64,000 nucleotides of DNA from NCBI RefSeq assembly GCF_003641205.1, contig NZ_CP032762.1, positions 5,804,662 through 5,868,661 of the forward strand, written 5' to 3'. Below the pieces are notes generated by a model. That model did no database searches. It worked only from the letters and a program-made list of their open reading frames with translations, and was not told the origin of the DNA. Source of the DNA: Rhodococcus sp. P1Y. Its GTDB lineage: Bacteria; Actinomycetota; Actinomycetes; Mycobacteriales; Mycobacteriaceae. Below, piece by piece: positions 10,879-39,093 of the stretch; positions within the stretch are counted from its first letter, which is position 1; each line of letters begins with the position of its first letter. A program made the translations under genes and the position numbers.

Positions 10879-10920
10879 CGTGCGTGCGTAGTTACCGCCG
10901 AACGTAAGTACGCGCGCACG
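10879..10920. repeat. Dispersed intergenic palindrome, family A (copy A1)
   Basis: Imperfect inverted repeat with arms CGTGCGTGCGTAGTTAC and GTAAGTACGCGCGCACG around an 8-base loop, between the fadE34-like gene and the chsE1 promoter. The stop codon of the upstream gene (10927-10929) lies in a flank (ACGGGCGCGTCAGCGC) that recurs exactly at the A4b copy near 33972. It may act as a terminator for the upstream gene. Confidence 0.8.
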
Positions 10921-10926
10921 GGCGCG

Positions 10927-13032
10927 TCAGCGCCTCGGCAACCCGAGAATCCTTTCAGCCGCGACCGTCAGCAAAATCTGCGACGTTCCACCCGCGATCG
11001 ACAGGCACCGCGTCAGCAGCATTTCCTTCGCCAGCGGCCCGTCCACGGCGCCGGCGGGGCCCGACACCTCCAGCGCGAACTCGGCCAGATCCTGACGATG
11101 ACGGACCCCCACCAACTTGCGTACCGAGGATTCGGCACCCGGGTCCTGCCCGCCGAGGCGTCGCAACGTCGATCGGAACTCGAGCAGCGATCCGACGAGA
11201 GCGTCGGCGACGAGACTTCCTAGACGTGCCTCGATTCCGCCGATTTCGCGGGTCTCTTCGACCACGTCCTCCAACGCCGACCCGAGCGTGGATCCGTTGC
11301 TCATCGCGACGCGCTCGTTGGCGAGCGTCGTGCGTGCCAGCTTCCAACCGTCGTTCTCGATACCGACGAGCCCGTCCTCGGGGACGAAGACCGCATCGAG
11401 GAACACCTCGTTGAACACAGCGTCACCGGTGATCTCGCGGAGTGGTTCCACGCGAATCCCCGGCGATCTCATGTCGACGAGAAAGTAGCTGATCCCCTTG
11501 TGTTTCGGTGCGTCGCGATCGGTCCGCGCCAGACAGATCGCCCAATCGGCCTCACGCGCGAGCGAGGTCCAAATCTTGTGTCCCTGCAGCGTCCACCCGC
11601 CGTCGACCTTCGTCGCCACCGTCCGCAGCGACGCCAGATCCGACCCGGCTTCGGGCTCGCTGAAGAGTTGGCACCAGGTGATGTCGCCGCGCAACGTCGG
11701 GCCCGCGAAACGTTCGATCTGCTCGTGCGTTCCGTGCTCGAGAATGGTCGGCACCGCCCACCACCCGATCACCAGGTCCGGTGCAGCGAGGCCGGCTCGA
11801 TGCAGTTCCTCGGCGTAGAGCAATTGCTCGGCGGCACTTGCGTCGCGGCCGTGCGGCCTCGGCCAATGCGGGGCAGCCAGTCCGGACTCGGCCAGCGCCG
11901 CCCGAGTGTCGCTGACGGACAACAGCTCGCGAACCTCGTCGCGAGCCCGGTGCCGGAGTTCCTCCGCATCGCCGAGATCCACGGTCAATTGTCTACGAAC
12001 CCCGGCTCGGGTCAGTTCCGTCACGCGGGCTTGCCACGACGCTGTGCCGCCCAGCAGCTGGCGCAACGACAACGCCCGTCGCAGGTACAGGTGCGCGTCG
12101 TGCTCCCAGGTGAACCCGATCCCACCGAGGATCTGAATACAGTCCTTGGCTGTGTCGACGGCGGCATCGAGCGCAATCGCGCCTGCCACCGCCGCGGACA
12201 ACGGAAATTCCTCGGGCGCCGAATCGGCCGCGACTGCGGCATCCCACGCCGACGCTCGAATCTTCTCGACCCGACACAGCATCTCCGCGGCCAGATGTTT
12301 GACCGCTTGGAAACTACCTATCGGCGCACCGAACTGCTCGCGGAACTTGGCGTGTTCGACGGCTGTCGACAAGCACCATCCGGCGATCCCCGCGGCTTCG
12401 GCGGCCGCGAGCGTGACGGCAAGGTCGCGGACCCCGGCATCGGACAGCTGCAGAATGTCGCTCGCGTCGACGGTGACAGCATCCAGTGAGACCCGCGCGA
12501 GGGGAACACTTCGATCGACACCGACGACCGCCGCGATCTGCACCCCCGACGCGTCCGACGGCACGATGCACCATTCACCTTCCCGCCCTCTATCGAGCGG
12601 AAGCAGCAACGAGACTCCGTCCGCGGCTCCCTGCGCGATCTCGACCGTGCCGTCGAGCCGGACCGCATCGCCCTCGGCTCTCGCCGCAACCGGCTCTCCC
12701 GACAGAGCGACCGCGCACGGCGACCCGTCCCACGGTATGCCGTTACGCCCGAGGAGGATCGCGGCCAGCGCCGTCGACAGGACAGGCCCACCCACCAGCC
12801 CCGCGCCCGTCTCCTCCAGCATCGACGCCAGGTCCGCGACGCTTCCGCCTGCGCCGCCCGCGTCCTCGGCAACCGCGACCGAGAACAGCCCGATGTCGAT
12901 GAGGGCCTGCCAGTGCGTCGCCCAGCTACCACACTCGTCACCGCGTAATGTTTCGATCGGTCCCGCCGAGGAAACCCACGATCTGATCGATCGTTGGATA
13001 TCGCGCTGATCCTCGGTCGTGGCAATTGTCAC
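10927..13032 (-). CDS. fadE34: Fused acyl-CoA dehydrogenase, FadE34/ChsE3-like
   Basis: A 701-residue protein made of two acyl-CoA dehydrogenase modules, about residues 1-340 and 345-701, like FadE34 (ChsE3) of M. tuberculosis, which oxidises the C5 side chain of cholesterol-derived CoA esters. The N-module has KFREQFGAPIGSFQAVKH and ILGGIGFTWEHDAHLYLRR. The C-module has FSEPEAGSDLASLRTVATK and GHKIWTSLAREADWA. It is divergent from kstR with a perfect KstR operator 36 bp before its start. Its stop lies beside repeat A1. The FadE34 assignment rests on architecture and regulon membership. Confidence 0.9.
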   Translation of the reverse strand: MTIATTEDQRDIQRSIRSWVSSAGPIETLRGDECGSWATHWQALIDIGLFSVAVAEDAGGAGGSVADLASMLEETGAGLVGGPVLSTALAAILLGRNGIPWDGSPCAVALSGEPVAARAEGDAVRLDGTVEIAQGAADGVSLLLPLDRGREGEWCIVPSDASGVQIAAVVGVDRSVPLARVSLDAVTVDASDILQLSDAGVRDLAVTLAAAEAAGIAGWCLSTAVEHAKFREQFGAPIGSFQAVKHLAAEMLCRVEKIRASAWDAAVAADSAPEEFPLSAAVAGAIALDAAVDTAKDCIQILGGIGFTWEHDAHLYLRRALSLRQLLGGTASWQARVTELTRAGVRRQLTVDLGDAEELRHRARDEVRELLSVSDTRAALAESGLAAPHWPRPHGRDASAAEQLLYAEELHRAGLAAPDLVIGWWAVPTILEHGTHEQIERFAGPTLRGDITWCQLFSEPEAGSDLASLRTVATKVDGGWTLQGHKIWTSLAREADWAICLARTDRDAPKHKGISYFLVDMRSPGIRVEPLREITGDAVFNEVFLDAVFVPEDGLVGIENDGWKLARTTLANERVAMSNGSTLGSALEDVVEETREIGGIEARLGSLVADALVGSLLEFRSTLRRLGGQDPGAESSVRKLVGVRHRQDLAEFALEVSGPAGAVDGPLAKEMLLTRCLSIAGGTSQILLTVAAERILGLPRR

Positions 13033-13068
13033 AATGGTTTCCCCAGTTCTCGTGATGACTTTTTCATC

Positions 13069-13082
13069 TAGAACGTGTTCTA
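13069..13082. promoter_or_regulatory. KstR operator between fadE34 and kstR
   Basis: A second perfect TAGAACGTGTTCTA palindrome, identical to the one at 10827, is centred between the divergent fadE34-like gene (starts 13032) and kstR (starts 13127). One site could control both directions, giving KstR autoregulation as known in mycobacteria. Confidence 0.93.
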
Positions 13083-13126
13083 ATACGCTAGCTGGTCGCG
13101 AGTCAAGGTGGATAGGAATAACGTCG

Positions 13127-13801
13127 ATGACCTCATCAACTCGGTCGGGGTCTGACGGCCCTCAGGACAACAACGGAGCGTCGGATCTCACGCCGCTGCG
13201 ATCGGTCGGTGTGCTCACGGACGACGACCTGAGTTCCAACGCTCAGCGTGAACGCCGCAAGCGAATCCTGGACTCGACTTTGGCCCTTGCGTCGAAGGGC
13301 GGATACGAAGCCGTCCAGATGCGCGCCGTTGCCGAACGGGCCGATGTCGCCGTCGGGACGCTGTACCGCTACTTCCCTTCCAAGGTGCACCTGCTCGTTT
13401 CCGCTCTTGCGAGGGAATTCGAGAAGATCGATTCCAGGCGCAAACTCCCGCCCGGCCAGACGCCACAGGAGCGCATGCACCTGATACTCGGACAGATCAC
13501 ACGTGCCATGCAACGTGACCCGCTACTCACCGAGGCAATGACCCGCGCCTTCATGTTCGCCGACGCATCCGCCGCCGCCGAGGTCGATCAGGTCGGTCGT
13601 CTGATGGACCGGCTGTTCGCAAAGGCGATGAGCGACGGCGAGCCGACTGAGTTGCAGCTCAGCATCGCTCGCGTCATCAGTGATGTGTGGCTGTCGAATC
13701 TCGTCGCGTGGCTGACCCGGCGATCCTCCGCGACGGACGTCGCCGCACGCCTCGAACTGACCGTCGATCTTCTGCTCGGAGACTCCAAAGCTCTGGGGTG
13801 A
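13127..13801 (+). CDS. kstR: TetR-family cholesterol catabolism repressor KstR
   Basis: A 224-residue TetR regulator almost identical in key segments to mycobacterial KstR: QRERRKRILDSTLALASKGG, AVQMRAVAERADVAVGTLYR (recognition helix), and later MQRDPLLTEAMTRAFMFADA and RVISDVWLSNLVAWLTRR. It represses the cholesterol regulon until CoA-activated sterol intermediates bind. The frame is open upstream to 13019 but that region holds the operator; the ATG at 13127 has an AGGAAT-like ribosome site. The N-terminal 50 residues are longer and more polar than in M. tuberculosis KstR. Confidence 0.96.
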   Translation: MTSSTRSGSDGPQDNNGASDLTPLRSVGVLTDDDLSSNAQRERRKRILDSTLALASKGGYEAVQMRAVAERADVAVGTLYRYFPSKVHLLVSALAREFEKIDSRRKLPPGQTPQERMHLILGQITRAMQRDPLLTEAMTRAFMFADASAAAEVDQVGRLMDRLFAKAMSDGEPTELQLSIARVISDVWLSNLVAWLTRRSSATDVAARLELTVDLLLGDSKALG

Positions 13802-13853
13802 CGCTCGGCGTCCGAGTGAGCCGGTTTCCTCTTCATCGCCTAGATTCTTTGAG

Positions 13854-16400: not shown

Positions 16401-16412
16401 CCGGCCTCGGAT

Positions 16413-16465
16413 CGCTCGAATGGTCCATTCATACGGTCAGATAGCTACTCGGGTCCATTCAAGCG
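16413..16465. repeat. Dispersed intergenic repeat, family B (copy B1)
   Basis: A 53-bp unit bounded by CGCTCGAATGGTCC and GGGTCCATTCAAGCG, which are near inverted repeats, with an internal ATACGGTCAGATAGC. It is the reverse complement orientation of copies B3 and B4. Located between the convergent otsB-GH15 and lacI-type genes. Confidence 0.8.
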
Positions 16466-16479
16466 GAAGGGGCGGCGGC

Positions 16480-17571: not shown

Positions 17572-17662
17572 ACTCGGACGTTAGTCGCAAACCGGGTCCC
17601 AGTGAAAATCGAGGAGCCGATGCCCGATTCGATCCGTGACCAGGAAATAGCTAGAGTACAAC

Positions 17663-17675
17663 GGTAACGGTTTCC
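17663..17675. promoter_or_regulatory. Candidate operator between lacI-type gene and metal importer
   Basis: GGTAACGGTTTCC is an imperfect 13-bp palindrome (GGwAACsGTTwCC) within a longer ACGGTAACGGTTTCCAATT stretch. It lies 34 bp before the metal-binding lipoprotein start. The form fits a LacI-family operator and also resembles high-GC actinobacterial Zur boxes (TGAAAACGGTTTTCA type). Which protein binds cannot be told from the sequence. Confidence 0.4.
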
Positions 17676-17708
17676 AATTGCATCTAGATTTCTTCCAGGA
17701 GCACCCCC

Positions 17709-18698: not shown

Positions 18699-18735
18699 CT
18701 AGGCCCGATACGCACGGCCCTGGGAAGATGAACGC

Positions 18736-20432: not shown

Positions 20433-20443
20433 ACTTGGCTCCG

Positions 20444-21202: not shown

Positions 21203-21804
21203 TGATCATCCACGACTGCGGAGATCACGCATTGCTCGTCGAGTATTCCGACTTGGCCGAGACCATGACGTACTACCGGTCTCTCGCCCAGTCCCCGATC
21301 GACGAAGTCGAGGACCTCGTCCCCGCTGCGCGCACCGTCCTCGTGCGGCACAACGGGAATCGCGATCGCGTGCTCGATTGGGTCCGCACAAAAGATCCTG
21401 CGAACTCCACCGCAGCAGAAAACAGCGAACCCGTGGTCATCGTAGTGTCCTACAACGGCGAGGACCTGGGTGACGTAGCCGAGGCCACGTCGATGAGCGT
21501 CGACGAGGTTATCCGCGCACACACGGAGCAGACGTGGACCGTTGCGTTCGGCGGATTTGCGCCGGGATTCGGCTACCTCGTCGGCGAAAACGATCGGCTG
21601 CACGTGCCTCGCCGCAACACACCACGCACGAAGGTGCCCGCAGGTTCGGTGGGGCTGGCGGGTGAATTCTCGGGCATCTACCCGCGCAGCTCCCCGGGCG
21701 GTTGGCAGCTGATCGGAAGAACCGATGCGCCGCTATGGGACGTTCACCGCGACCCACCTGCCCTGTTGCAACCGGGAGCAACCGTCCGGTTCGAGCAACG
21801 ATGA
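21202..21804 (+). CDS. pxpB: 5-oxoprolinase subunit PxpB (KipI-like)
   Basis: A 200-residue member of the KipI/PxpB family. The characteristic segment TVAFGGFAPGFGYLVG is at about residues 113-128, followed by VPRRNTPRTKVPAGSVGLAG and YPRSSPGGWQLIGRT. In Bacillus the homologue KipI inhibits a sporulation kinase, but next to pxpA and pxpC the 5-oxoprolinase role is much more likely. Start and stop overlap both neighbours (TGATG and ATGA). Confidence 0.95.
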   Translation: MIIHDCGDHALLVEYSDLAETMTYYRSLAQSPIDEVEDLVPAARTVLVRHNGNRDRVLDWVRTKDPANSTAAENSEPVVIVVSYNGEDLGDVAEATSMSVDEVIRAHTEQTWTVAFGGFAPGFGYLVGENDRLHVPRRNTPRTKVPAGSVGLAGEFSGIYPRSSPGGWQLIGRTDAPLWDVHRDPPALLQPGATVRFEQR

Positions 21805-22652
21805 GTTCCATCGAAGTGCTCTCCCCGGGTGCGCTTTCCACAGTCCAGGATCGAGGCAGGCTCGGATATTCGTCCATCGGCGTCGGCCGCTCCGGAGCTG
21901 CGGACAGCGACGCACATGACACCGCAAATCGGCTGGTAGGCAACATGCTCGGCGCAGCAACAGTGGAGACGACTCTCGGCGGACTGCGAATACGAGCGCA
22001 CGGACCCGTCGTGACCGCGGCGACCGGGGCTCGGGCGCCGGTGACGATCAACGGCGTCGGCGATGCGATGCACTGCACTCTCAACCTCGCCGATGGGGAC
22101 GAATTGTTCATCGGGACAGCCATTTCCGGACTTCGGACCTATCTCGCGGTCCGAGGCGGCATCGACGTCGAACCGGTTCTCGGAAGCAGATCGACCGACA
22201 CGATGGCCGAGCTCGGACCAGCGCCGCTCGCTGCGAACGACGTGCTCACCATCGGCCGGGAGTCGACCGATTGGCCTGCCGCATCCTGGGCCCCACCGCG
22301 TATCGATTCCGGGCCCATCCGGGTAATCCTCGGCCCCCGCGACGACTGGTTCGCCGACGCGTCCGCACTGTTCGGCCAGGAATGGACGGTCACCTCCGAA
22401 GCCGACCGCGTCGGCGTCAGACTCGATGGCGTCGCACCGTTGGAACGCTCGGGCACCGCTGAACTCCCCAGCGAAGGCATGGTCGTCGGCGCCCTTCAGG
22501 TCCCTCCTGACGGTCAACCGGTCGTGTTCCTGGCCGACCACCCCGTCACCGGCGGTTACCCGGTCATCGGTGTCGTCACCAGCGCCGACCTTCCCCGCCT
22601 CGGCCAGCTACGCCCGGGGGATGTCGTGCGCTTCGCGCCCGTGCGTGCGTAA
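21801..22652 (+). CDS. pxpC: 5-oxoprolinase subunit PxpC (KipA-like)
   Basis: A 283-residue biotin-dependent-carboxylase-like domain protein of the PxpC/KipA type: VLSPGALSTVQDRGRLGYSS at the N-terminus, GRSGAADSDAHDTANRLVGN, and near the C-terminus PSEGMVVGALQVPPDGQP with HPVTGGYPVIG. It forms the PxpBC part of 5-oxoprolinase. The stop codon and last residues (PVRA) are encoded by repeat A2, the same C-terminus as MutY in this window. Confidence 0.95.
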   Translation: MSSIEVLSPGALSTVQDRGRLGYSSIGVGRSGAADSDAHDTANRLVGNMLGAATVETTLGGLRIRAHGPVVTAATGARAPVTINGVGDAMHCTLNLADGDELFIGTAISGLRTYLAVRGGIDVEPVLGSRSTDTMAELGPAPLAANDVLTIGRESTDWPAASWAPPRIDSGPIRVILGPRDDWFADASALFGQEWTVTSEADRVGVRLDGVAPLERSGTAELPSEGMVVGALQVPPDGQPVVFLADHPVTGGYPVIGVVTSADLPRLGQLRPGDVVRFAPVRA

Positions 22653-22680
22653 TGACAGCGGAGTGTCATTACGCACGCAC
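22641..22680. repeat. Dispersed intergenic palindrome, family A (copy A2), terminator-like
   Basis: A perfect 17-bp inverted repeat, GTGCGTGCGTAATGACA and its complement, separated by a 6-base loop. It lies between the convergent pxpC and iron-binding lipoprotein genes and contains the pxpC stop codon (22650-22652). Such a stem could terminate transcription from both sides, though no T-tract follows. Confidence 0.9.
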
Positions 22681-22686
22681 GTGCCG

Positions 22687-23688
22687 TTACTTGGATGCAG
22701 CCTCGGCGAGCTGTGGGACGAGCGCGTCGATTGCGAATGGCAGGCTCAGGACCGTGCCCCACGTCAAGGCACCGGACACGATCGGATCATCGACGAAGAT
22801 GGCTCTGCCGTCCCGTGCGACGTTCAAGGCCTGATACGTCGGCACTGCCTTGACCTGATCGCTCGTGCCTACGCTACTGCCCGTGTTCCACACCAGCACA
22901 TCGAGATCGAGCATTCCCAGTTGTTCGGTGCTGATCTGGAATGCGTCCTGGTCTCCCGCGAGATCGGCAATCTGCTGCGGAATTACGAACCCCAAGGACG
23001 TGAGAAGACGAGAACGCTGGTCGTTCGGCGACCGCACCCAGAAGCTGCCCGGTTCACCGGCCTCGGCGACCGCGACGGTCTTGCCCTCGAACTCGGGATG
23101 AGCTTGCCGTTGCGCGGTCAGTTCGGCATCGACGTCGGAGACCAGCTCTGCAGCCTTGTCGGACTGCCCTAGAGTATCGCCGACAAGTCGGACGCTCTCC
23201 TGCCACGGCATACCGAAATCGGGGTAGTCGGGCGAGCCCGTCACGGTGGGAGCGATCTCGCTCAAGCGTGAATAGGCGTCACTGCTGACATCGATGTACT
23301 GGGCCATGATGAGATCCGGTTGCAGCGCGGCGATCTGCTCGTAGGCGATGTTGGCCTGCCCGGTGAACTGCCCCCGATTGAACACCTCAGGCTGGGCGTC
23401 GCCCAGCGCGTCCTGGGCCCACGGCCACGTTGCGTACGGATAGTCCCCATACCAATCGGTGACCCCGACCGGAACCTCCGCGAACGCAAGCAGAGTGTCC
23501 TGATCCGAGTAGCCGACGGTGACGATCCGTTCGGGGTCGACGGGGACCTCGGTGGTCCCGAGCTTGTGCACCACAGAACGTGTCTCGGTCGCCGGCTTCT
23601 CCTCTGCATCGGAGGCACACGCGCCCACACCGAGAACAAGACCGAATGCTGCGATGCCCGCAACTGCGCGCACACTGTTGAACGCCAC
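22687..23688 (-). CDS. Iron-siderophore ABC transporter substrate-binding lipoprotein
   Basis: A 333-residue FepB/FecB-type binding protein. The signal peptide ends at a GVGAC lipobox (C24). The fold has KLGTTEVPVDPERIVTVGYSDQD, the mid-region IAALQPDLIMAQYIDVSSDAY, and C-terminal VDDPIVSGALTWGTVLSLPF. It captures ferric siderophores for an ABC importer encoded elsewhere. GTG start at 23688. A near-consensus IdeR box at 23705-23723 predicts iron repression. Confidence 0.93.
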   Translation of the reverse strand: MAFNSVRAVAGIAAFGLVLGVGACASDAEEKPATETRSVVHKLGTTEVPVDPERIVTVGYSDQDTLLAFAEVPVGVTDWYGDYPYATWPWAQDALGDAQPEVFNRGQFTGQANIAYEQIAALQPDLIMAQYIDVSSDAYSRLSEIAPTVTGSPDYPDFGMPWQESVRLVGDTLGQSDKAAELVSDVDAELTAQRQAHPEFEGKTVAVAEAGEPGSFWVRSPNDQRSRLLTSLGFVIPQQIADLAGDQDAFQISTEQLGMLDLDVLVWNTGSSVGTSDQVKAVPTYQALNVARDGRAIFVDDPIVSGALTWGTVLSLPFAIDALVPQLAEAASK

Positions 23689-23704
23689 GTGACGAACCCT
23701 TTCG

Positions 23705-23723
23705 TTAGGTTCGACTAACCTAA
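23705..23723. promoter_or_regulatory. IdeR/DtxR iron box
   Basis: TTAGGTTCGACTAACCTAA matches 17 of 19 bases of the IdeR/DtxR consensus TTAGGTTAGGCTAACCTAA and is 17 bp upstream of the siderophore-binding lipoprotein start. Iron-loaded IdeR would repress this gene. Confidence 0.92.
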
Positions 23724-23738
23724 CATTCGTCGCGGGTC

Positions 23739-23778
23739 GTGCGTGCGTAATGACATTGGGGTGTCACTACCCACGCAC
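23739..23778. repeat. Dispersed intergenic palindrome, family A (copy A3)
   Basis: Arms GTGCGTGCGTAATGACA and TGTCACTACCCACGCAC (two mismatches) around a 6-base loop. It lies downstream of rlmB and just upstream of the IdeR box. The right flank GGGCGGCGAAGCCG is the exact complement of the flank at the mutY end (CGGCTTCGCCGCCC), so the mobile unit is longer than the stem. Confidence 0.85.
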
Positions 23779-23793
23779 GGGCGGCGAAGCCGC

Positions 23794-24774
23794 TTACCGC
23801 CTACGCTGACGCGCGATGTCGGCGAGCACAACGCCCGCTGCTACGGATGCATTCAGCGACTCGACCGGCCCAGCCATCGGAATCGACAGGATCGAATCGC
23901 AGGTCTCACGAACCAAGCGCGAGAGGCCCTTGCCCTCGGATCCGACGACGATGGCGACGGGTCCGCTGGCGTCGAAGTCGTCGAGCGTGGTGTCGCCCTC
24001 GGCGTCGAGGCCGACGATGGTGACACCCTTGGTCTGCCAATCCTTGAGCGTACGAGTCAGATTGGTAGCCCGAGCGACGGGAAGCCGGGCCGCCGCACCG
24101 GCACTCGTGCGCCATGCGACTGCGGACACGCTTGCGCTTCGACGCTGCGGGATCACGACGCCATGGCCACCGAAGGCAGCGACGGAACGCACGACAGCTC
24201 CGAGGTTGCGGGGGTCGGTGATGTTGTCGAGCGCGACGAGAATCGCAGACTCCTGGTGTGCGCGAGCGGCACCGAGAAGATCGTCGGGGTGTGCGTAGCG
24301 ATACGGCGGCACCTGAAGCGCGAGACCCTGGTGCAGGCCGTTGACGCTGAGCTTGTCCAGATCGCTGCGTGGCACCTCGAGAATCGAGATGCCGGCGTCG
24401 GCGGCGCGCTGAATGCTCTCCTTGAGCCGCTCGTCGCTGTCGGTGCCGACAGCGACCCACAGAGCCGTCGCCGGCACACCCGCGCGGAGGCACTCCACGA
24501 CAGGGTTACGACCCAGCACCACCTCGGGAGCGTCGTCGTTCTTTCTGCTCGCGACGCGACCGCCGCCCTGCCTGCCACCGCCGCCTTGGTTCTGTGCGGA
24601 CTTCTCCGCAAGCTTGGCCCGTCGCGACGCGGGGTGCTTCGTCCTGGCCTCGGCTGGTGGCGTCGCACCGCGTCCTTCGAGGCCCCTGCGGCGGTTACCG
24701 CCGGATCCGGCGACCTGCCCCTTCTTGGTGCCTGTCTTGCGAACTGCGCCGCGCCTACTGGAATTGCCTGCCAT
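23794..24774 (-). CDS. rlmB: 23S rRNA (guanosine-2'-O-)-methyltransferase, TrmH/SpoU family
   Basis: A 326-residue SPOUT methyltransferase. The first 75 residues are a basic, Arg/Lys/Gly-rich extension. The substrate-binding domain follows ([15 protein letters not shown]), then the SPOUT domain with [37 protein letters not shown] and [16 protein letters not shown], the three motifs that bind S-adenosylmethionine in a trefoil knot. It probably methylates 23S rRNA at G2251. The ATG at 24774 overlaps the cysS stop by one base. Same position as Rv3579c next to cysS in M. tuberculosis. Confidence 0.93.
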
Positions 24775-26198
24775 CACTGCCCTGCTTCGTCGGTACCACT
24801 GGTTGCCCCGACGGACCATTCGGGCCCGTTGGGGGTGTCTGTCACGTCTATTCCGGCCTTCGCCAGACGGTCCCTGATCGCGTCCGCTGCGGCCCAGTCC
24901 TTGTCGACCTTCGCCTGTGCGCGGCGCTGCAACTCGGCGTCGACCAGAACACCGAGGGCTCCGACGACGGCATCGTTGTCGCCCGAATCAGCTGCCCAAT
25001 GCGGGTCGAGTGGGTCGACGCCGAGAATGGACAGCATCGCCCTGACCTTCGACGCCTGCTCGACGGCTCCGGAAAGGTCCCCACTCTCGAGCGCACTGTT
25101 GCCGGTTTTCACCGTTGCATGCACGGCAGCGAGGGCCTTGGGTACTCCGAGATCGTCGTTCAGCGCGGCGGCGAAGTCCTCGGTCCACGTGCCGAGCGGA
25201 ACCTCTCCGGCGCGTTCGACGGTGCGCTTCACGAAACCTTCGATGCCGCGGTACGTGACCGCTGCCGTCTGCAGTGCATTGTCCGAATACTCAAGCATCG
25301 AACGGTAGTGCGCACTTCCGAGGTAGTAGCGAAGTTCCTGCGGTCGAACGCTTTTCAGCACATTCGGCACGGACAGGACGTTGCCGAGCGATTTCGACAT
25401 CTTCTCGCCGCCCATGGTGACCCAGCCGTTGTGGAGCCAGTATCGGCTGAATCCGTCGCCTGCAGCCTTGCTCTGAGCGCGCTCGTTCTCGTGATGTGGA
25501 AACACCAGATCCAAACCGCCGCAATGGATATCGAAGTCCGGACCGAGGTACGCCTCGCACATAGCCGAGCATTCGAGATGCCAACCCGGCCGGCCACGGC
25601 CCCACGGCGTCGGCCACGACGGCTCGCCTGGCTTCGCAGCCTTCCACAGCGTGAAGTCTCGCGGGTCGCGCTTTCCGGCGCCGACGCTCTCACCCTGATG
25701 AACGTCGTCGAGTTTGTGACCGGACAGTGCGCCGTAATCGGGGAAGCTGACGACGTCGAAATAGACGTCACCTTCCGCGGCATACGCATGACCGGAAGCG
25801 ATGAGCCGTTCGATCAGCTCGACCATCTGTGTGATGTGCCCGGTCGCCCGCGGCTCGGCCGAGGGCGGAAGTACTCCGAGCTTGTCGTACGCCCAGGTGA
25901 ACGATCGCTCGAACGTCGCTGCCCACTCCCACCACGGGCGGCCGGCGTCGCGTGCCTTGTTCAATATCTTGTCGTCGATATCGGTGACGTTGCGGATGAA
26001 CGCCACGTCGTAGTCGTGGGCGAGAAGCCAACGCCGCAACACGTCGAAGGCGACTCCACTACGTACGTGACCGATGTGCGGCTCACCCTGGACCGTCGCC
26101 CCACACAGATACACCGATGCATGGCCAGGGACCAAGGGGGAAAATTCCCGCAGGGCCCTCGTCTCGGTGTCGTATAGGTGAAGGGTCACGACCAGCAA
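24774..26198 (-). CDS. cysS: Cysteinyl-tRNA synthetase
   Basis: A 474-residue class I synthetase. The HIGH motif is in [11 protein letters not shown], the KMSKS motif in [12 protein letters not shown], and zinc-binding residues lie in [17 protein letters not shown] and the HHENE stretch. It charges tRNA-Cys with cysteine. The GTG at 26189 is an alternative start. The gene is in the conserved ispD-ispF-cysS-rlmB order. It is not the related MshC mycothiol ligase, which lacks this operon context. Confidence 0.96.
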
Positions 26199-26212
26199 TG
26201 CTACCGGTGCAT

Positions 26213-26677
26213 TTACTCCGTCACGACAAGTGCGGTAGCGATGGCGGCGATTCCCTCACCTCGACCCGTCAATCCGAGTCCGTCGGTGGTGGTCGCCGAT
26301 ACCGATACCGGCGCTCCGAGCACCGTCGACAAGGTTTCCTGAGCTTCGAGGCGCCGCGGTCCGATCTTGGGCCGGTTGCCGATGATCTGCACCGCAGCGT
26401 TGCCGATGGCAAAGCCGCTCTCGGTAAGCAGTCGGCGCACCTCGGTGAGCATCGCCGAACCGCTGACACCGTCCCATTCGGGTCGTCCGGTCCCGAACAC
26501 GGACCCGAGATCGCCCAGGCCTGCTGCCGACAGAAGCGCGTCACACAGGGCATGAGCGGCGACGTCACCGTCGGAATGGCCTTCACAACCGTCTGCGTCC
26601 TCGAAGAGCAGACCTGCGAGCCAGCACGGACGACCGACTTCGATCGGATGCACGTCGCTGCCGATACCGACCCTCAT
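26213..26677 (-). CDS. ispF: 2-C-methyl-D-erythritol 2,4-cyclodiphosphate synthase
   Basis: A 154-residue IspF of standard length, fifth enzyme of the MEP isoprenoid pathway. The zinc-site segment GSDVHPIE and the [17 protein letters not shown] motif are at the N-terminus; the C-terminal [19 protein letters not shown] is diagnostic. The start overlaps the ispD stop by 4 bp. Confidence 0.96.
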
Positions 26678-27354
26678 ACGCTCTCCTGCAGGACGATCGC
26701 CTCGGCCAACAGAAGGTCGTGAGGCGTAGTGATCTTGAAAGCTAGTGCGTCACCGACGATGGTGTGGACGGTTTCGCCCAGTCGTTCGACCAGACCCGCA
26801 TCGTCGGTCGCGGTGCCCGACGCCTCGGCGTAGGCGCGGCGGAGCAGGTCGGCTCGAAATCCCTGCGGCGTTTGGATCGCACGTAGCGCGCTCCGGTCGG
26901 GTGTGCCGACCACGGCGCCCATGATGTCGACGGATTTGATCGTGTCGGCCACGGGGAGGGCAGGCACGACAGCGGTACGGCCCGCTCTGACCTCCGCTAC
27001 GACACGTGCGATCAATGTCGGTGGGGTGAGTGCGCGGGCGGCGTCGTGTACGAGCACGATGCCGGCGTCACCTACTTCGGACAGACCGGAGCGAACGGAG
27101 TCCGTTCGCTCTGCGGCGCCCGCCACGACTGTTACGGACGGACCGAACAGTGCACGTGTGTGTTCGACCAGATCAGCGGGCACCATTACGACAACACGGT
27201 CGACGGCCCCTGACGATGTCAGGCCGTCGACCGATCGTTGCAACAATGTGGAGCCGCCGAGTTCGACGAATGCCTTCGGCTGACCTCGCAGAAGGCGAAG
27301 GCCTTGGCCCGCCGCCGGAACGAGCGCGACGACGGGACCGAGATGCGAACTCAC
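26674..27354 (-). CDS. ispD: 2-C-methyl-D-erythritol 4-phosphate cytidylyltransferase
   Basis: A 226-residue nucleotidyltransferase. The CTP-binding loop is [10 protein letters not shown] near residue 12, and [11 protein letters not shown] and [16 protein letters not shown] are the family motifs. It makes CDP-methylerythritol in the MEP pathway. The GTG start at 27354 directly abuts the carD stop, so carD-ispD-ispF-cysS-rlmB is one tightly packed operon. Confidence 0.96.
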
Positions 27355-28176
<822 letters not shown>

Positions 28177-28842
28177 GTGACTGCGTTCATTGCTGCGACT
28201 GCGAACCGTAAGACCCGTCGATTGGCAACCGCTGTCGCCATCGCTGCGGGCGGAGTACTGACGCTGAGTGCCTGTGGTGCCGGACAGGTCTCACAGACCT
28301 CCGACCAGGTCGCTGCGGTCAACGGAAACTCAGCCGAGGTCGGCAACATCTCGCTGCGCAACGTGCACGTCGTCTACCCCCAGACCGAGGAGTACTCGAT
28401 CGAGCCGGGCGGCAAGGTCGAACTCGGATTCATCGTCGTCAACAACAGCCCCGCGAGCGCCGACACCCTCACGCGCATCTCGACGACTGCAGCGTCGTCG
28501 ATCACTGTCGGCGAGGAGTCGGGCGGCACGGAGATCGCCCCGCTCACCGCCCTCGGAGCAGGCGCCCCCGTCGACAACCAGGTCGAGGATCCCGGTATCC
28601 CGCTCCAGTTCATCGTCGTCGAACTGAACGGCATCGGCGAGGAAGTTCGCCCCGGGCTCACCGTGCCTGTCACCTTCACGTTCGAGGAGGCAGGCGACGT
28701 CGAGTTGCTCGTCCCCGTCGATGCAGGTCAGGTTCTTCCCCGCGACGTCTCAGCGAAGTCGCCGGTGGAGGCCGAAGCTCACAGTGTCGAAGAGAGCATC
28801 GTCGAAACTCAGGTCGAGGAAGCTACCGACGGCAACAACTGA
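28177..28842 (+). CDS. lpqE: LpqE-like lipoprotein
   Basis: A 221-residue lipoprotein between carD and radA, the same position as LpqE (Rv3584). The signal peptide runs from a basic N-region (ANRKTRR) through AVAIAAGGVL to the lipobox LSAC with C33. The mature part is beta-rich (ISLRNVHVVYPQTEEYSIEPGG, VVNNSPASADTL) with an acidic tail. Function unknown; the family is often predicted to bind metals or copper by analogy with PCuAC, which is unproven here. The GTG at 28177 has a GGAG site 9 bp upstream; an in-frame start at 28096 is less likely. Confidence 0.85.
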   Translation: MTAFIAATANRKTRRLATAVAIAAGGVLTLSACGAGQVSQTSDQVAAVNGNSAEVGNISLRNVHVVYPQTEEYSIEPGGKVELGFIVVNNSPASADTLTRISTTAASSITVGEESGGTEIAPLTALGAGAPVDNQVEDPGIPLQFIVVELNGIGEEVRPGLTVPVTFTFEEAGDVELLVPVDAGQVLPRDVSAKSPVEAEAHSVEESIVETQVEEATDGNN

Positions 28843-28876
28843 CGTTCCTGTCGGTAGCCACCTCTAGTCTTTGCCC

Positions 28877-30286
28877 GTGGCCAAACTGAAGACGAACTAC
28901 CGCTGTTCGGCCTGCCAGCACACCGTGGCCAAGTGGGTCGGCCGTTGCCCGGAGTGTGGTAGCTGGGGCTCGATGGACGAAGCGCCTGTGCTCGCTCCCG
29001 TCGCCAGTCGCGCGGGTGCATCCGGCCTCGGGGCAGGCAACACTCGATCGCCCATGGCTGCGATGGTTCCGACTACTCCTGCCACCGCCATCACCCAGGT
29101 CAGCAGCACATCCTCCCAGGCCAACTCCACCGGAATATCCGAATTCGATCGAGTGCTCGGAGGCGGGCTAGTCCCCGGCTCGGTGGTTCTACTCGCCGGT
29201 GAACCCGGCGTCGGAAAATCCACCTTGCTTCTCGAGGTCGTGCACCGCTGGGCACGGACCGGCGAAGATCGGCGTGCCCTGTACGTCACCGGCGAGGAGT
29301 CGGCCGGGCAGGTGCGACTGCGCGCCGACCGAACCGGCGCCGTTCACGAACGCGTCTACCTCGCCGCCGAATCCGATCTCGCGACCGTCTTCGGGCACGT
29401 CGAGCAAGTGAAGCCGAGCCTGCTGATCGTCGACTCCGTTCAGACGATGCTCGCCGCCGACGTCGACGGCGTCATCGGTGGTGTGACGCAGGTCCGCGCC
29501 ATAACCAGTGCGCTCACCTCACTCGCGAAGACCACAGGCGTAGCGGTACTGCTCATCGGGCACGTCACCAAGGACGGCGCCGTCGCCGGACCCCGATCAC
29601 TCGAACACCTCGTCGACGTCGTCCTTCACTTCGAAGGCGACAAACACACCACGCTGCGCATGATCCGTGGCGTCAAGAATCGCTTCGGTGCCTCCGACGA
29701 AGTCGGGTGTTTCGAGTTGCGCGACACCGGCATCGAGGGCATCTCGGATCCGTCGGGACTCTTCCTGCACCACCGCACCGACTCGGTCCCCGGCACTGCC
29801 GTCACGGTCACCATGGACGGCAAGAGGCCCCTACTGGCCGAACTGCAGGCACTCGTCGTGGACACGCACATGCCGTCACCACGACGCGCGGTCAGCGGCC
29901 TCGACTCGGCCCGTGTCGCGATGATCCTTGCCGTTCTCGAACGACGCTGTGGCGTGAAAGTCGCCAAGACCGAGGTGTACGCAGCGACGGTCGGCGGCAT
30001 GAAGACCAGTGAACCTGCGGCGGATCTCGCGCTGGCGGCAGCCGTCGCATCGGCCGTCACCGATGTCCCCCTCCCGCCTGGATTCGTGATTCTCGGCGAG
30101 GTCGGATTGGCCGGCGAGGTTCGGCGGGTCTCCGGTCTCGGGCGCCGACTGGCCGAGGCGGCGCGGCTCGGCTTCACCCATGCCATCACCCCGGAACACG
30201 AGGACGCCATCCCTGCCGGAATGAAGGTGAAGACCGTCACCAATCTCGGCGACGCACTGAATTCACTGCGTACGCGATCACGGTGA
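28877..30286 (+). CDS. radA: DNA repair protein RadA (Sms)
   Basis: A 469-residue RadA. An N-terminal C4 zinc ribbon (CSACQ and CPECGSWG), the RecA-like ATPase core with Walker [10 protein letters not shown], the RadA-specific KNRFG motif ([13 protein letters not shown]), and a C-terminal Lon-protease-like domain with [20 protein letters not shown]. RadA drives branch migration in homologous recombination. GTG start at 28877. It lies immediately upstream of disA as in most actinobacteria; RadA is known to modulate DisA. Confidence 0.96.
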
Positions 30287-30372
30287 TATCGCTCAAGTAA
30301 CCTTCTACCTGCGGGGCTGCGAAGTGCCGTGAAATTGCGCAAGCTTGCAGCAGAGCCGACACCGACGAGGGG

Positions 30373-31476
30373 ATGACCATGGACGACTCCACACGCGGCG
30401 AGCCGTCGTCCGCCGCGTTGAGGGAGACCATCGCGAGGTTGGCGCCGGGCACTGCCCTCCGCGACGGCCTGGAGCGCATCCTCCGCGGTCGCACGGGTGG
30501 GCTCATCGTCCTCGGTTACGACGACGAGGTCGAGGCTATCTGCGACGGCGGTTTCGAATTGGACGTCGAATTCGCACCCACCCGGCTACGCGAGCTGTCG
30601 AAGATGGACGGGGCCGTCGTGTTGTCGACGGACGGCACACGGATCGTCCGATCCAATGTCCAACTGGTTCCCGACCACAAGATCCCCACCGTCGAGTCCG
30701 GCACGCGACACCGCGCAGCCGAGCGTACGGCGATGCAGACCGGGTACCCGGTCGTGTCGGTGAGTCAGTCGATGAGCATTGTCAGTGTCTACGTCGCAGG
30801 GGTGCGGCACGTGGTCGAGGGGTCGGCGACCATCCAGTCACGAGCCAACCAGGCCGTCGCGACACTCGAACGCTACAAGGCACGTCTCGACGAGACCACA
30901 CGTCAGTTGTCCGTCGTCGAGATCGAAGACTTCGTCACCTTGCGTGATGCCCTCACCGTTGCGCAGAGGCTGGAGATGGTGCGACGCGTCTCGGTCGAGA
31001 TCGAGCAGAACGTACTCGAACTCGGTACCGACGGAAGACAATTGGCCCTCCAATTGGAGGAACTGCTCGGCGACAACGACGTCGACCGTCAGCTCGTGGT
31101 GCGTGACTATCTTGCCGGAACGGAACCTGCTGGCACAGCGGCCGTCGAACGCGCGCTCGGCGCTCTGGACAAACTCACCGACGTCGATCTTCTCGATCTG
31201 ACCACCCTGGCCAGAGCCTTCGGCTACCCCTCGACCATCGAAGCTCTCGACACTCCCATGAGCCCCCGCGGCTACCGCGTACTGACCCGTGTGCCGAGAT
31301 TGCAGTTCAGCCAGATCCACCGGCTCGTCGCCTCGTTCGGGACGCTTCAGGTACTGCTGGCGGCCACAGCAGCCGATCTACAGTCGGTCGACGGCATCGG
31401 CGGCTTGTGGGCACGGCACATCAGGGAAGGCCTGTCCCGGCTGGCCGAATCTTCGATCGCCGGGCCGTTCGACTGA
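30373..31476 (+). CDS. disA: DNA integrity scanning diadenylate cyclase
   Basis: A 367-residue DisA that makes cyclic di-AMP and senses branched DNA. The DAC catalytic domain (about 1-150) has the DGA motif (KMDGAVVLS) and [10 protein letters not shown], the two ATP-contact motifs. A helical linker leads to a C-terminal helix-hairpin-helix DNA-binding domain (residues about 295-360, with [21 protein letters not shown]). Its stop abuts the stop of the convergent gene with no spacer, so there is no room for a separate terminator. Confidence 0.96.
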
Positions 31477-32205
31477 CTAGGTCGTGATGTTGAACGGCTC
31501 CGGCGAGCTGCGGAGTTCACCAAGCTGTGCGATGACCTTGTAGGAGCCCGCACCGACCGGGATTCGTTCGGCCTCGCATCCTGGGACGGAATTGGTGCCG
31601 GACCACTTGACCGTGAAGCCGGCCTGCTCACCGGGCTTGAAGGTCCGCAGATCGGACTGCGCGTCGGGGAAGCAGTCCGTGTTGGACCAGATGCGCTGAT
31701 CGTCGAGCGTGTAGACCAAAGCCTGCTGCAGACCTGCACCGACGTCGCGCTGGCACTCCGTCGAGCTGATGTTGGTGATGACGACGGTGAATCCAGGTTC
31801 CTCGCCGACCCGGTAGGTGGCCTTGTCGGGCGTCGCCTTGATCGCAAGGCTCTGATCGGGGCACTGATTGGCCGCGACCGGAGCACCGGAAGCAGGCGCA
31901 CTGCTGGACCCGGAACCACCGGATGCCGCAGCGCCCGAGGACCCACCAGACCCACCAGATCCGCCGGACCCGCCTTCGCTGGCGGCGCCGAGCGCCTGAG
32001 ACGAGGTGGTGGTGGGTGCCGTCGTCGTCGGGCTCGCCGAGGACACGACACCAGCGGGCTCGGCCTGCTGATTCTCGTCGCCTCCGCCACCGAGCGAGGC
32101 GATGAACCACACGATCAAACCGAGCACGACGACGGCCGCACCGATGGCGAGAGCACGACGTCGCCAGTAGATTTCGGGAGGCAAAGGCCCGGTTGGTTCC
32201 AACAC
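31477..32205 (-). CDS. Membrane-anchored Ser/Gly-rich protein (Rv3587c-like)
   Basis: A 242-residue protein with a short cytoplasmic N-terminus, one transmembrane helix (residues about 18-40, ALAIGAAVVVLGLIVWFIASL), a low-complexity Ser/Gly/Thr linker (about 50-110, with GGSGGSGGSGGSSG), and an extracellular beta domain carrying three or four cysteines (QCPDQSL, TECQRDV, TDCFPDAQ, PGCEAERI). Matches the position and layout of Rv3587c, between disA and carbonic anhydrase. Function unknown. Confidence 0.85.
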   Translation of the reverse strand: MLEPTGPLPPEIYWRRRALAIGAAVVVLGLIVWFIASLGGGGDENQQAEPAGVVSSASPTTTAPTTTSSQALGAASEGGSGGSGGSGGSSGAAASGGSGSSSAPASGAPVAANQCPDQSLAIKATPDKATYRVGEEPGFTVVITNISSTECQRDVGAGLQQALVYTLDDQRIWSNTDCFPDAQSDLRTFKPGEQAGFTVKWSGTNSVPGCEAERIPVGAGSYKVIAQLGELRSSPEPFNITT

Positions 32206-32282
32206 AGAACAACCGTAGGTGCCATCAGCTCACCCGTCGGGCAAGCGCCTGCGGCGTGTCGCGACCTAGCTGCCCGAGATGA

Positions 32283-32906
32283 TCAAGGCAGTTCGCCGAT
32301 GTCGCCGATGACCTCGCGCAAACGTGCGCTGCCCTCGGACAGCCTGTACGTCAAACCGACGATTGCGACCTCTCCCGTTTCGACTTTGTCGGCGATGATG
32401 CGCGAGCGCTGCATCAGCAGATTCGCGGTCTCCTCGACGTGACGCGCCTCGAAATCGTCGACCGCGGTGTACCCGTCGCGGCGTGCGGACAGCACCGACG
32501 GAGTGACGCGCTCGACTACATCGCGAATGTAGCCACCGGGGGTGTCACCGGAATCGAGGGCGTCGATGGTCGCTTTGACGGCGCCGCACCTGTCGTGGCC
32601 CAGCACGACGATGAGTGGCGCTCCGAGGACGGCGACTCCGTATTCGATCGATCCGAGAACGGACGAGTCCATGGTGTGGCCCGCAGTTCGGACTACGAAC
32701 ATGTCGCCGAGACCCTGATCGAAAATGATCTCGGCGGCGACGCGGGAGTCGGCGCATCCGAACAGGATTGCGCCTGGGTGCTGGCCCTCCGCAAGACGTG
32801 TGCGGTCCTCGATTCCCTGACTCGGGTGCAGTGGCTCTCCGGCGACGAAACGCTGGTTACCATCTTTGAGGGACTTCCATGCTGTGACTGGGTTCGTAGC
32901 AGGCAT
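32283..32906 (-). CDS. Beta-class carbonic anhydrase
   Basis: A 207-residue beta-carbonic anhydrase, same length as M. tuberculosis Rv3588c (CanB). Zinc ligands are in FGCADSRVAAE (Cys, with the Asp-Arg dyad) and VLGHDRCGAV (His and Cys). It interconverts CO2 and bicarbonate. The ATG at 32906 begins PATNPVTAWKSLKDGN, the family N-terminus; upstream in-frame ATGs exist but add unlike sequence. Divergent from mutY across 70 bp. Confidence 0.94.
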   Translation of the reverse strand: MPATNPVTAWKSLKDGNQRFVAGEPLHPSQGIEDRTRLAEGQHPGAILFGCADSRVAAEIIFDQGLGDMFVVRTAGHTMDSSVLGSIEYGVAVLGAPLIVVLGHDRCGAVKATIDALDSGDTPGGYIRDVVERVTPSVLSARRDGYTAVDDFEARHVEETANLLMQRSRIIADKVETGEVAIVGLTYRLSEGSARLREVIGDIGELP

Positions 32907-32976
32907 GTCATCCATTGTGCCTGTACTGCTGGTTACCAGCGAGTCGGGTACTTCTCGACAACGCCGTAGGAGAGAC

Positions 32977-33879
32977 GTGCCGATCGATACAGCTGCCCTT
33001 CTCGGATGGTTCGATTCCGAGGAACGCGACCTACCGTGGCGTCGGCCGGGCGTCACCGGATGGCAGATCCTGATGAGCGAAATTATGCTCCAGCAGACAC
33101 CGGTCTCTCGCGTCGCTCCCATCTGGGAGCAGTGGGTACAGCGATGGCCCGTGCCGTCGGCGATGGCTGCGTCGTCACAGGCCGAGGTTCTGCGTGCATG
33201 GGGGAAGTTGGGTTATCCCCGACGTGCGCTCCGACTGCACGAATGCGCGGGCGTACTTGCCTCCGAACACGGTGACGTCGTCCCCCAGGACGTGGAGACC
33301 CTCCTCGGACTGCCGGGCATCGGCGCCTACACCGCGCGGGCCGTCGCATGTTTCGCCTACGGGCAGCGCGTGCCCGTCGTCGACACCAACGTCCGACGCG
33401 TCGTAGCGCGGGCCGTGCACGGAGCCGCAGAGCCTGGAAACCCGTCGACGACGCGTGATCTCGCGGACACCCTCGCGCTCCTCCCACGGACCCGAGCCAA
33501 GGCTGCACGCTACTCGGCGGCGTTGATGGAACTCGGTGCTTTGATCTGTACCGCGAAGAATCCCGCATGCCTGCTGTGCCCACTGCCCGAGTGCTCGTGG
33601 ATCGAAGCGGGTCGGCCCGCGTACGAAGGCCCGGCGAAGAAGGTCCAGAAATTCGCGGGCACCGACCGCCAGGTGCGCGGGAAACTGATGTCGGTCCTGC
33701 GGGACAGTCACGGACCCGTCGAGCGGGCACGTCTGGACGTCGTGTGGCTCACCGACCCCGGGCAGCGTGACCGGGCGCTGCATTCACTGCTGCTCGACGG
33801 CTTGGTCGAACAGACCGAGGACGGCATGTTTGCCCTGGCTGGGGAGGGCGACGCGGCTTCGCCGCCCGTGCGTGCGTAG
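32977..33879 (+). CDS. mutY: A/G-specific adenine DNA glycosylase
   Basis: A 300-residue MutY that removes adenine mispaired with 8-oxoguanine. The catalytic glutamate is in MSEIMLQQT, the helix-hairpin-helix in LLGLPGIGAYTARAV, the catalytic aspartate in PVVDTNVRR, and the 4Fe-4S ligands are the four cysteines in ICTAKNPACLLCPLPECSW. The usual C-terminal NUDIX-like domain is reduced to a short helical tail. The GTG at 32977 is 6 bp after a GGAGA site. Its last residues and stop (PVRA) come from repeat A4a. Confidence 0.95.
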   Translation: MPIDTAALLGWFDSEERDLPWRRPGVTGWQILMSEIMLQQTPVSRVAPIWEQWVQRWPVPSAMAASSQAEVLRAWGKLGYPRRALRLHECAGVLASEHGDVVPQDVETLLGLPGIGAYTARAVACFAYGQRVPVVDTNVRRVVARAVHGAAEPGNPSTTRDLADTLALLPRTRAKAARYSAALMELGALICTAKNPACLLCPLPECSWIEAGRPAYEGPAKKVQKFAGTDRQVRGKLMSVLRDSHGPVERARLDVVWLTDPGQRDRALHSLLLDGLVEQTEDGMFALAGEGDAASPPVRA

Positions 33880-33914
33880 TTACGTTCTGGTGTCTGGTGT
33901 CACTACCCACTCAC
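33868..33914. repeat. Dispersed intergenic palindrome, family A (copy A4a)
   Basis: Arms GTGCGTGCGTAGTTAC and GTGTCACTACCCACTCAC flank a short loop; the mutY stop (33877-33879) is inside the left arm. It is followed 18 bases later by another copy (A4b) in the same gap. Confidence 0.82.
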
Positions 33915-33932
33915 GACCCGCGGCCGGAGGTC

Positions 33933-33972
33933 GTGAGTGAGTAATTACGTTCCTGTGTCATTACGCGCGCAC
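33933..33972. repeat. Dispersed intergenic palindrome, family A (copy A4b)
   Basis: Arms GTGAGTGAGTAATTAC and GTGTCATTACGCGCGCAC. The right flank ACGGGCGCGTCAGCGC is identical to that of copy A1 and supplies the stop codon of the convergent alpha/beta hydrolase (33980-33982), just as in the fadE34-like gene. Confidence 0.85.
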
Positions 33973-33979
33973 GGGCGCG

Positions 33980-38891: not shown

Positions 38892-38944
38892 GGCTTGAAT
38901 GGACCCCGCACGCTATCTGACCGTATGAATGGACCATTCAAGCG
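38892..38944. repeat. Dispersed intergenic repeat, family B (copy B3)
   Basis: A 53-bp unit with the internal core GCTATCTGACCGTATGAATG, reverse complement to the core of B1. First of two tandem copies with a 74-bp period, between the convergent lipase and clpC1 genes. Confidence 0.82.
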
Positions 38945-38965
38945 ATCGCGAGGCCGGCGGTCCCC

Positions 38966-39018
38966 CGCTTGAATGGACCCCGCACTCTATCTGACCGTAT
39001 GAATGGGCCATTCAAGCG
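38966..39018. repeat. Dispersed intergenic repeat, family B (copy B4)
   Basis: Second tandem unit, nearly identical to B3 across 53 bp and also sharing the following CGATCGC. Bounded by CGCTTGAATGG and CCATTCAAGCG, giving a long hairpin. Confidence 0.82.
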
Positions 39019-39059
39019 ATCGCCCGGGCGGCCAGACGGCCACCGGTCCGTGACAGCAA

Positions 39060-39093
39060 AACGGACCGCACCCCGTAAGGAGTGCGGTCCGTT
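39060..39093 (-). terminator. Rho-independent terminator of clpC1
   Basis: A strong hairpin: AACGGACCGCAC pairs with GTGCGGTCCGTT (12 bp, followed by one mismatch and two further pairs) around a GTAA loop. Read on the minus strand it is followed by TTTTGCTG, so it terminates clpC1, whose stop is 18 bp upstream. Confidence 0.9.

Follow-up and report, generated by a model that had tools for sequence, protein, structure and literature searches.

A genus-restricted, probably mobile palindromic element beside stop codons in Rhodococcus sp. P1Y

One question raised by this locus is whether a set of near-identical palindromes lying between genes consists of hairpins that evolved independently or of copies of one element that has moved. 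The locus is a window of 64,000 nucleotides from Rhodococcus sp. P1Y (positions 5804662-5868661 of one 5.87-Mb contig, with a G+C content of 64-66%). An initial annotation had placed five inverted repeats in it, at 10879-10920, 22641-22680, 23739-23778, 33868-33914 and 33933-33972, and had regarded them as dispersed elements that could be REP-like (repetitive extragenic palindromes), MITE-like (miniature inverted-repeat transposable elements) or recruited terminators. All five repeats were confirmed; they are five hairpins but four elements, since 33868-33914 and 33933-33972 together make up one double. The reading that we favour, at a probability of about 60%, is that of a non-autonomous mobile palindrome restricted to the genus, REP- and MITE-like but without a RAYT transposase, which lies beside stop codons and may act there as a 3'-end hairpin in both directions.

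With up to three mismatches allowed, 11 matches to the 16-mer GTGCGTGCGTAATGAC were found in the window, ten of them the ten arms of the hairpins; 100 shuffles gave 0.68 matches on average and never more than 3. In the whole genome the 11-mer GTGCGTGCGTA was counted 52+48 times on the two strands, versus 5+0 for the reversed control, and 95 of the 100 exact sites fell inside a catalogued palindromic unit (five outside). A covariance model built from 62 units gave at least 150 strand matches in this genome, so the genome-wide search proposed in the initial annotation found many further copies. Among the matches listed, 152 hairpin units were distinguished, which make up 103 elements (54 singles and 49 doubles); without the six weakest, which have scores of 30-35 and are perhaps false (807868, 5230164, 1252134, 1582774, 2350216 and 2353745), 97 strong elements remain, 48 single and 49 double. 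This catalogue was drawn from the window and from stretches around the matches listed, and misses further elements. The intergenic bias, also proposed for checking, was observed: five of the 103 elements were called inside a predicted gene, three of them weak. No match to Rfam was obtained within the window at gathering scores.

The unit has a constant architecture of about 72 bp, formed by a terminal mini-hairpin (about 16 bp), a 40-bp core and a second mini-hairpin. The core comprises a 16-bp arm, an 8-bp centre and the inverted 16-bp arm, and its length of 40 bp follows from a centre of exactly 8 nt in 149 of the 152 units. Outside the core there is mostly CCC or GGG and then the mini-hairpin (consensus after the core, GGGCGGCGNAGCCGC), and terminal inverted repeats are present (TGCGGCTNCGCCGCCC...GGGCGGCGNAGCCGCA). 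Some singles carry both mini-hairpins and are complete units of 70-72 bp, whereas in doubles a linker, in most cases 16-18 bp long, connects two cores and usually begins with GA and ends with TC (34 doubles listed). The parts of the four elements in the window are the following:

10880..10919: element 1, single 40-bp core; truncated on the left, where it ends in GGGTC, which resembles the inner linker
10922..10933: element 1, right terminal mini-hairpin, GCGC-GTCA-GCGC
22628..22638: element 2, left terminal mini-hairpin, GCGC-TTC-GCGC
22641..22680: element 2, single 40-bp core; provides the TAA stop (22650-22652) of the gene ending there
23739..23778: element 3, single 40-bp core; truncated on the left
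23779..23793: element 3, right terminal mini-hairpin, GGGCGGC-GAA-GCCGC
33853..33867: element 4, left terminal mini-hairpin, GCGGC-TTC-GCCGC-CC; in frame, it encodes the C-terminus of the mutY-like protein (...DAASPPVRA)
33868..33914: element 4 (double), first core; centre of 15 nt instead of 8
33915..33932: element 4, inner linker (GACC...GGTC)
33933..33972: element 4 (double), second core
33975..33986: element 4, right terminal mini-hairpin, GCGC-GTCA-GCGC

These elements are tightly joined to gene ends. The first core of element 4 provides the TAG stop (33877-33879) of the mutY-like gene, and the mini-hairpin of element 3 directly adjoins the stop (TTA, 23794-23796) of an rlmB-like gene (23794-24819, minus strand). 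The longer flanks that the initial annotation had found to be shared by some copies proved to be of two kinds: CGGCTTCGCCGCCC is the terminal mini-hairpin of the element, but ACGGGCGCGTCAGCGC is half host sequence, as its TCA is the stop codon of the adjoining gene at both of its sites, namely an acyl-CoA dehydrogenase-like gene (10927-13032, minus strand; stop 10927-10929) at element 1 and a convergent alpha/beta-hydrolase gene (33980-34795, minus strand; stop 33980-33982) at element 4. In this half-host flank (GGGCGCGTCAGCGC) the host share is also seen from relatives: TCAGCGC or a close variant, as at the right end of element 4, is found at the mutY locus of relatives that have no element. 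The sequence GTGCGCTTC at 22628..22638 is also present in relatives without element 2, where it codes for VRF of a carboxyltransferase-domain gene. A short inverted-repeat cluster elsewhere in the window (38893-39093; GCTTGAATGGACC / GGACCATTCAAGC with a near copy, then AACGGACCGCACCCC / GGAGTGCGGTCCGTT) is unlike this family.

The comparison with relatives carries the argument for movement. A periplasmic-binding protein encoded in the window has relatives of 81-82% in Rhodococcoides fascians A44A (G004) and Rhodococcus sp. 14-2470-1b (G029) and of 77% in R. yunnanensis (G028), which places the source genome in the R. fascians group, with Rhodococcoides as the probable genus name. A further relative, G006, looks like R. 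sovatensis; the sets L084, L085 and L086 are apparently the same genomes as G004, G029 and G028 and provide no independent evidence. The clearest case is the mutY site: of 11 relatives examined, nine have no element, G031 has one with its own arm type, partly duplicated, and G026 has another hairpin, possibly a remnant. The region measures fewer than 10 bases in G003, G004, G010, G021 and G029, versus about 130 in this genome. The C-terminus of MutY is ...GEG in several relatives and another short tail in others, whereas here it is ...GEGDAASPPVRA, a tail shared by a 93%-identical protein. The 22641 site is empty in G004, G029 and G006, and the 23739 site in G004, G029 and G028, while elements with other arms lie near both points in G031 and G010. 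Since some relatives lack the element at these three window sites, the elements are insertions, and past movement is well supported. The exact ends of the insertions are uncertain because the relatives are only about 80% identical. At a fourth site, 966798, partial or decayed elements were found in G031, G028, G003 and G010, a doubtful one in G021 and none recognisable in six of 11 relatives; absence there is weaker evidence, because the left neighbour differs in most relatives.

Some of these sites showed other peculiarities. In G031 (mutY site; L119, G031:C69) the host stop region TCAGCGC is repeated once more between the two halves of the element, as if it had been duplicated together with the element. 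At the rlmB site of G006 the place of element 3 is taken by an unrelated palindrome (L122:1376-1429), which has arms of 25 bp (CCTCCAGTGGTGTGGTTAAG...) and a GNA mini-hairpin of its own. The iron-siderophore-type binding protein gene that lies between elements 2 and 3 (22687-23688) is apparently absent from this position in G010 and G001.

The family is patchy within the genus. With the covariance model it was detected in nine of 37 genus genomes, including this one, and in none of 24 other genomes of the order. The end signature GCGGCTNCGCCGCCCGT was present in nine of the 37 and absent from 28 (48 matches in this genome, 25 in G021, 20 in G003, 17 in G031, 16 in G010, 5 each in G026 and G028, and 1 each in G006 and G004; at most two per genome for the control), and eight genomes were positive by both methods. 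Among 150 genomes from the whole order, the signature extended by one base gave this genome and two single matches only. The arms of the relatives differ on the same 40-bp core, for instance GTGTGYGCGTAGTMGG in G021 and GTGCGYGNATAGTTGG in G010, and in seven relatives with different arms 62 of 63 strand-counted cores were exactly 40 bp (one was 41); therefore, the arm sequence turns over in a unit whose length and ends are conserved. The empty sites and the absence of the end signature from 28 genomes exclude chance at high G+C as the source of the flanks, and the empty sites, with the further copies in the genome, bear out the view of the initial annotation that these are dispersed elements and not independently evolved hairpins. 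Additional palindrome families with other arms occur in G026 (L160:5895-5948) and G010 (L155-L157), the three G010 copies having near-identical arms (GTGCGTGCGAATGTACAG) that look young. Several long near-perfect palindromes with arms of up to 31 bp also lie inside 400 bp of Curtobacterium sp. MCBD17_032 (L106:4858-5232).

The mini-hairpins have a GC stem and a GNA loop read toward the 3' end on each strand, and each strand of the element has such a hairpin at its own 3' end. Of 206 flanks, 95 have a GNA loop closed by a stem of 4 bp or more and seven have a GNNA loop closed in this way, compared to 0.26% and 0.24%, respectively, of random 30-mers. Where G-N-A stands at the expected offset (138 flanks), covariation of the stem was strong against shuffled halves (z 14.6), also after removal of the commonest stem (80 flanks, z 9.9). 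The GTCA loop contains the stop codon of the adjoining gene in three of four cases. PMC4686876 gives as a rule that DNA mini-hairpins in which GC pairs close a GNA or GNNA loop are extraordinarily stable and resist nucleases. The element ends obey this rule, but there the mini-hairpin is a motif attached to aptamers, whereas here it appears to form the ends of an element dispersed through a genome.

Placement was analysed for 95 of the 103 elements, omitting the five called inside genes and three at the ends of stretches; up to three weak elements are still among the 95. A gene 3' end lies within 20 bp of the outer arm in 74 of 95 elements, versus 6.4% of noncoding bases, a crude null; genes were called by a simple codon-usage caller (490 genes, 80% coding). 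In 27 of the 74 the stop is inside the arm, in 34 it is 0-15 bp away and in 13 it is 16-20 bp away. Between tandem genes, 42 of 49 elements are closer to the upstream stop; in spacers that measure 100 bp or more apart from the element, 20 of 28 lie within 20 bp of that stop, about 3.6 being expected for uniform placement. Convergent pairs hold 36 of 95 elements, compared to 44 of 310 control pairs, and divergent pairs hold 10 of 95, compared to 71 of 310. In the 29 cases in which a gene ends inside an element, the protein ends exactly in ...PVRA in 15 and in a near variant in six (both kinds with TAG or TAA), and eight have other tails with TGA. Pfam domains in ten such genes reach to within 30 residues of the new end in six (one below the Pfam cut-off); in two more they come to within 33 and 38 residues of it, and in the remaining two the known domain ends much earlier, hence uninformatively. 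In other species the left end, by eye, often follows directly after a stop-like triplet, such as TAG-TGCGGC, and a CTA, TCA or TTA three bases past the stem was counted for 21 of 78 ends in other genomes and for 10 of 67 in this one. That the 4-nt GTGN periodicity serves to provide stop codons in all frames was considered and rejected; such stops are present in some copies only and missing from the arms of some other species.

Several observations weigh against the favoured reading. As regards siting, 21 of the 95 elements lie more than 20 bp from any 3' end, ten elements lie between divergent genes, and two strong copies (552747 and 1258999) were called inside genes. As regards structure, the mini-hairpin with a GNA or GNNA loop and a stem of 4 bp or more is missing from 104 of 206 flanks (78 without a stem, 26 with another loop), some elements being truncated; arm matching within doubles is no better than shuffled (98 cores, z -1.1) and in strong singles it is weak (48 cores, z 2.5, p 0.011). 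As regards movement, no enzyme was found: Y1_Tnp (the RAYT family, PF01797) has no match in this genome and is present in only one of the 37 genus genomes, which is element-negative. Among the 100 exact GTGCGTGCGTA sites of this genome no parent transposon was found, and plasmids and phages yielded no copy. A target-site duplication was looked for in 12 doubles, a small sample with relatives about 80% identical, and gave no signal (mean best repeat 2.08 versus 1.78 shuffled, 18% of shuffles as high). Copies at one site common to several species indicate that some insertions are old. Loss of the palindrome nuclease SbcCD as the cause of the copies was rejected for the D subunit: its loss cannot explain them, because SbcD is present in 37 of 37 genus genomes. 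Other origins were discarded as well. The search for a plasmid or phage origin gave no plasmid match and a 23-bp chance match in one phage only; in the 20 viral contigs that carry the end signature, inspection by eye showed no palindrome after it; and none of the five lone 11-mers, inspected by eye as possible ends of an autonomous transposon, has surroundings resembling an element end.

The arms themselves vary around a fixed motif. In 298 half sites of this genome, positions 1-3, 5, 7, 11, 13, 15 and 16 are conserved in at least 94%, positions 9 and 10 in 86-92%, and positions 4, 6, 8, 12 and 14 are variable. Since arm matching is absent in doubles and weak in strong singles, the core need not be a maintained stem in this genome; it acts largely as two motif copies at fixed spacing, with compensation at most weak. 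A stem maintained by compensatory change was likewise weak or absent in the 62 chosen units (paired cells 87.0% versus 86.3% shuffled). Another sample gave within-core z values of -1.1 and 0.8 for 34 doubles and 1.9 for 36 singles, and 149 units gave 2.8 (singles 5.9, with weak units included; doubles -1.1). A small same-position association between the arms was seen at positions 4, 9 and 14 and in the centre, with p-values that are too good because every pair was entered twice. Nested pairing of the inner arms of doubles is weak and is one among many tests (p 0.012 for 16 positions in 49 doubles; p 0.006 for positions 1-11 in 34 doubles). In pooled relatives, the arms match beyond the species consensus (0.858 versus 0.803 shuffled within species; 36 cores, six relatives).

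GC-rich hairpins at gene 3' ends serve actinobacteria as intrinsic terminators without a U-tract. The palindromes share both of these features, and they might be such terminators, spread by selection and occasional recombination and not by an enzyme of their own. We consider this unlikely, although the strong siting at 3' ends and between convergent genes speaks for it, as do the weak arm matching in strong singles and pooled relatives and the stable folding (-70.6 kcal/mol and z -12.4 for a complete 74-nt copy; z -3.3 to -4.5 for the four window elements). Terminators need no common 72-bp composite unit with a fixed 40-bp core, arms do not covary in doubles, and several related species have nothing at the same 3' ends; the composite repeated unit, the insertion differences between species and the provision of stop codons also set the elements apart from known terminators of this kind. 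No U-tract followed the stem in 21500-35000, which covers three of the four window elements, and no element was among the three terminator-like matches. Of the suggestion of recruited terminators, the siting at 3' ends thus stood, but a U-tract and more than weak covariation of the core arms in this genome did not.

The fixed motif raises another alternative, improbable in our view, in which a nucleoid protein or another protein that binds chromosomal DNA recognises the 16-bp arms as paired sites, inverted and 8 bp apart, and the copies are retained because they help to organise the chromosome. Free positions 4, 6, 8, 12 and 14 among others conserved at 86-100%, the fixed spacing and the poor matching between the two arms of a core are consistent with it. 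The distribution over the chromosome is too: twelve equal bins hold 12, 17, 11, 11, 11, 2, 1, 1, 6, 5, 12 and 14 elements, so that three bins hold four of the 103 copies. The GC skew of the fetched stretches switches sign near 0.6 Mb and 3.5 Mb, so that the depleted quarter adjoins the putative terminus; the depletion may reflect younger gene content or a function. However, the arms are species-specific and neither the model nor the end signature detects the family in 27 of 37 genus genomes, which argues against an essential role, and the mini-hairpins are left unexplained.

RAYT transposases are a frequent explanation for short dispersed palindromes. That the family consists of REPs or REPINs (REP doublets forming hairpins) moved by a RAYT lost from this genome or encoded elsewhere is still more improbable: the dimers, extragenic palindromes and about 100 copies do resemble REPINs (PMC3116915, in the part available), and CGTC-tagged REP families without a dedicated transposase have been described (available part of PMC3733652), but Y1_Tnp is missing from 36 of 37 genus genomes, element-rich ones included, no GTAG or CGTC tag was seen, and the internal core, not the ends alone, is conserved in length and motif. 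The RAYT-type transposase that the initial annotation had proposed to look for is absent (PF01797: 0), and a RAYT encoded in this genome was therefore rejected. By eye, no GTAG or CGTC stands at the hairpin foot: the core is flanked mostly by CCC or GGG, the mini-hairpin follows GCAC-GG, and the GTAG present in some arms is inside the stem. As far as the available parts of PMC3116915 and PMC2817692 go, REPs, bacterial interspersed mosaic elements (BIMEs) and REPINs share with our elements the short extragenic palindromes in many copies, the dimers in inverted order and the species-specific sequence families; the actinobacterial host, the missing RAYT and GTAG-type tag, the fixed 40-bp palindromic core between end hairpins and the tight stop-codon siting are different here. 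For REPINs the inverted doublet counts as the unit of replication; here 54 singles, some of them complete, stand beside 49 doubles. The CGTC-tagged REPs, including Rickettsia RPE-4 and RPE-6, are palindromic repeats apparently without a dedicated transposase, some of them inside genes; our elements are alike in this, but they have no CGTC tag and provide a C-terminal tail and a stop codon (PMC3733652, the available part of which contains neither 'Rhodococcus' nor 'actinobacter'). The label REP-like is therefore justified by the copy number, the extragenic palindromes and the dimers; transposase and tag do not support it.

A MITE is a non-autonomous element with terminal inverted repeats, and for the favoured reading of a mobile palindrome this comparison is partly apt: terminal inverted repeats and insertion differences between species agree with it, whereas a target-site duplication was not seen in the 12 doubles, a parent transposon was not found among the exact 11-mer sites of this genome, and the ends are hairpins with GNA loops. 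For its mechanism we infer an enzyme, a single-stranded intermediate, a choice of target and a role in termination. An enzyme acting in trans, other than a RAYT encoded in this genome, would move the element by recognising the folded mini-hairpins at both ends of a single-stranded intermediate and by measuring the fixed 40-bp core. It would insert beside gene ends, or selection would retain mainly the copies there, where the palindrome may act as a passive two-way 3'-end hairpin in termination or in protection of the mRNA end. The element would be tolerated because it adds just a short tail and a stop codon, and new families with other arms would arise in each lineage while old copies decay. 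A bolder version is possible, and we put it forward tentatively: a new class of bacterial mobile palindrome with GNA-capped 3' ends and a measured length of 40 bp, moved by a non-RAYT/Y1 enzyme that targets stop codons, rewriting C-termini and with arms that diverge fast between species. No description of the family was found, with partial coverage, in the literature on Rhodococcus or Rhodococcoides palindromes or repeats, nor by the 11-mer.

For the genus, the finding means a large and diversified set of palindromes in actinobacteria nearly without RAYT, whose ends fit the rule for extraordinarily stable DNA mini-hairpins and which are tightly sited at stop codons. The family offers a system in which to seek a new mobiliser and to test whether palindromes at gene ends are placed there or selected there. 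With 29 gene ends in one genome, it also allows the study of how mobile DNA may reshape protein C-termini.

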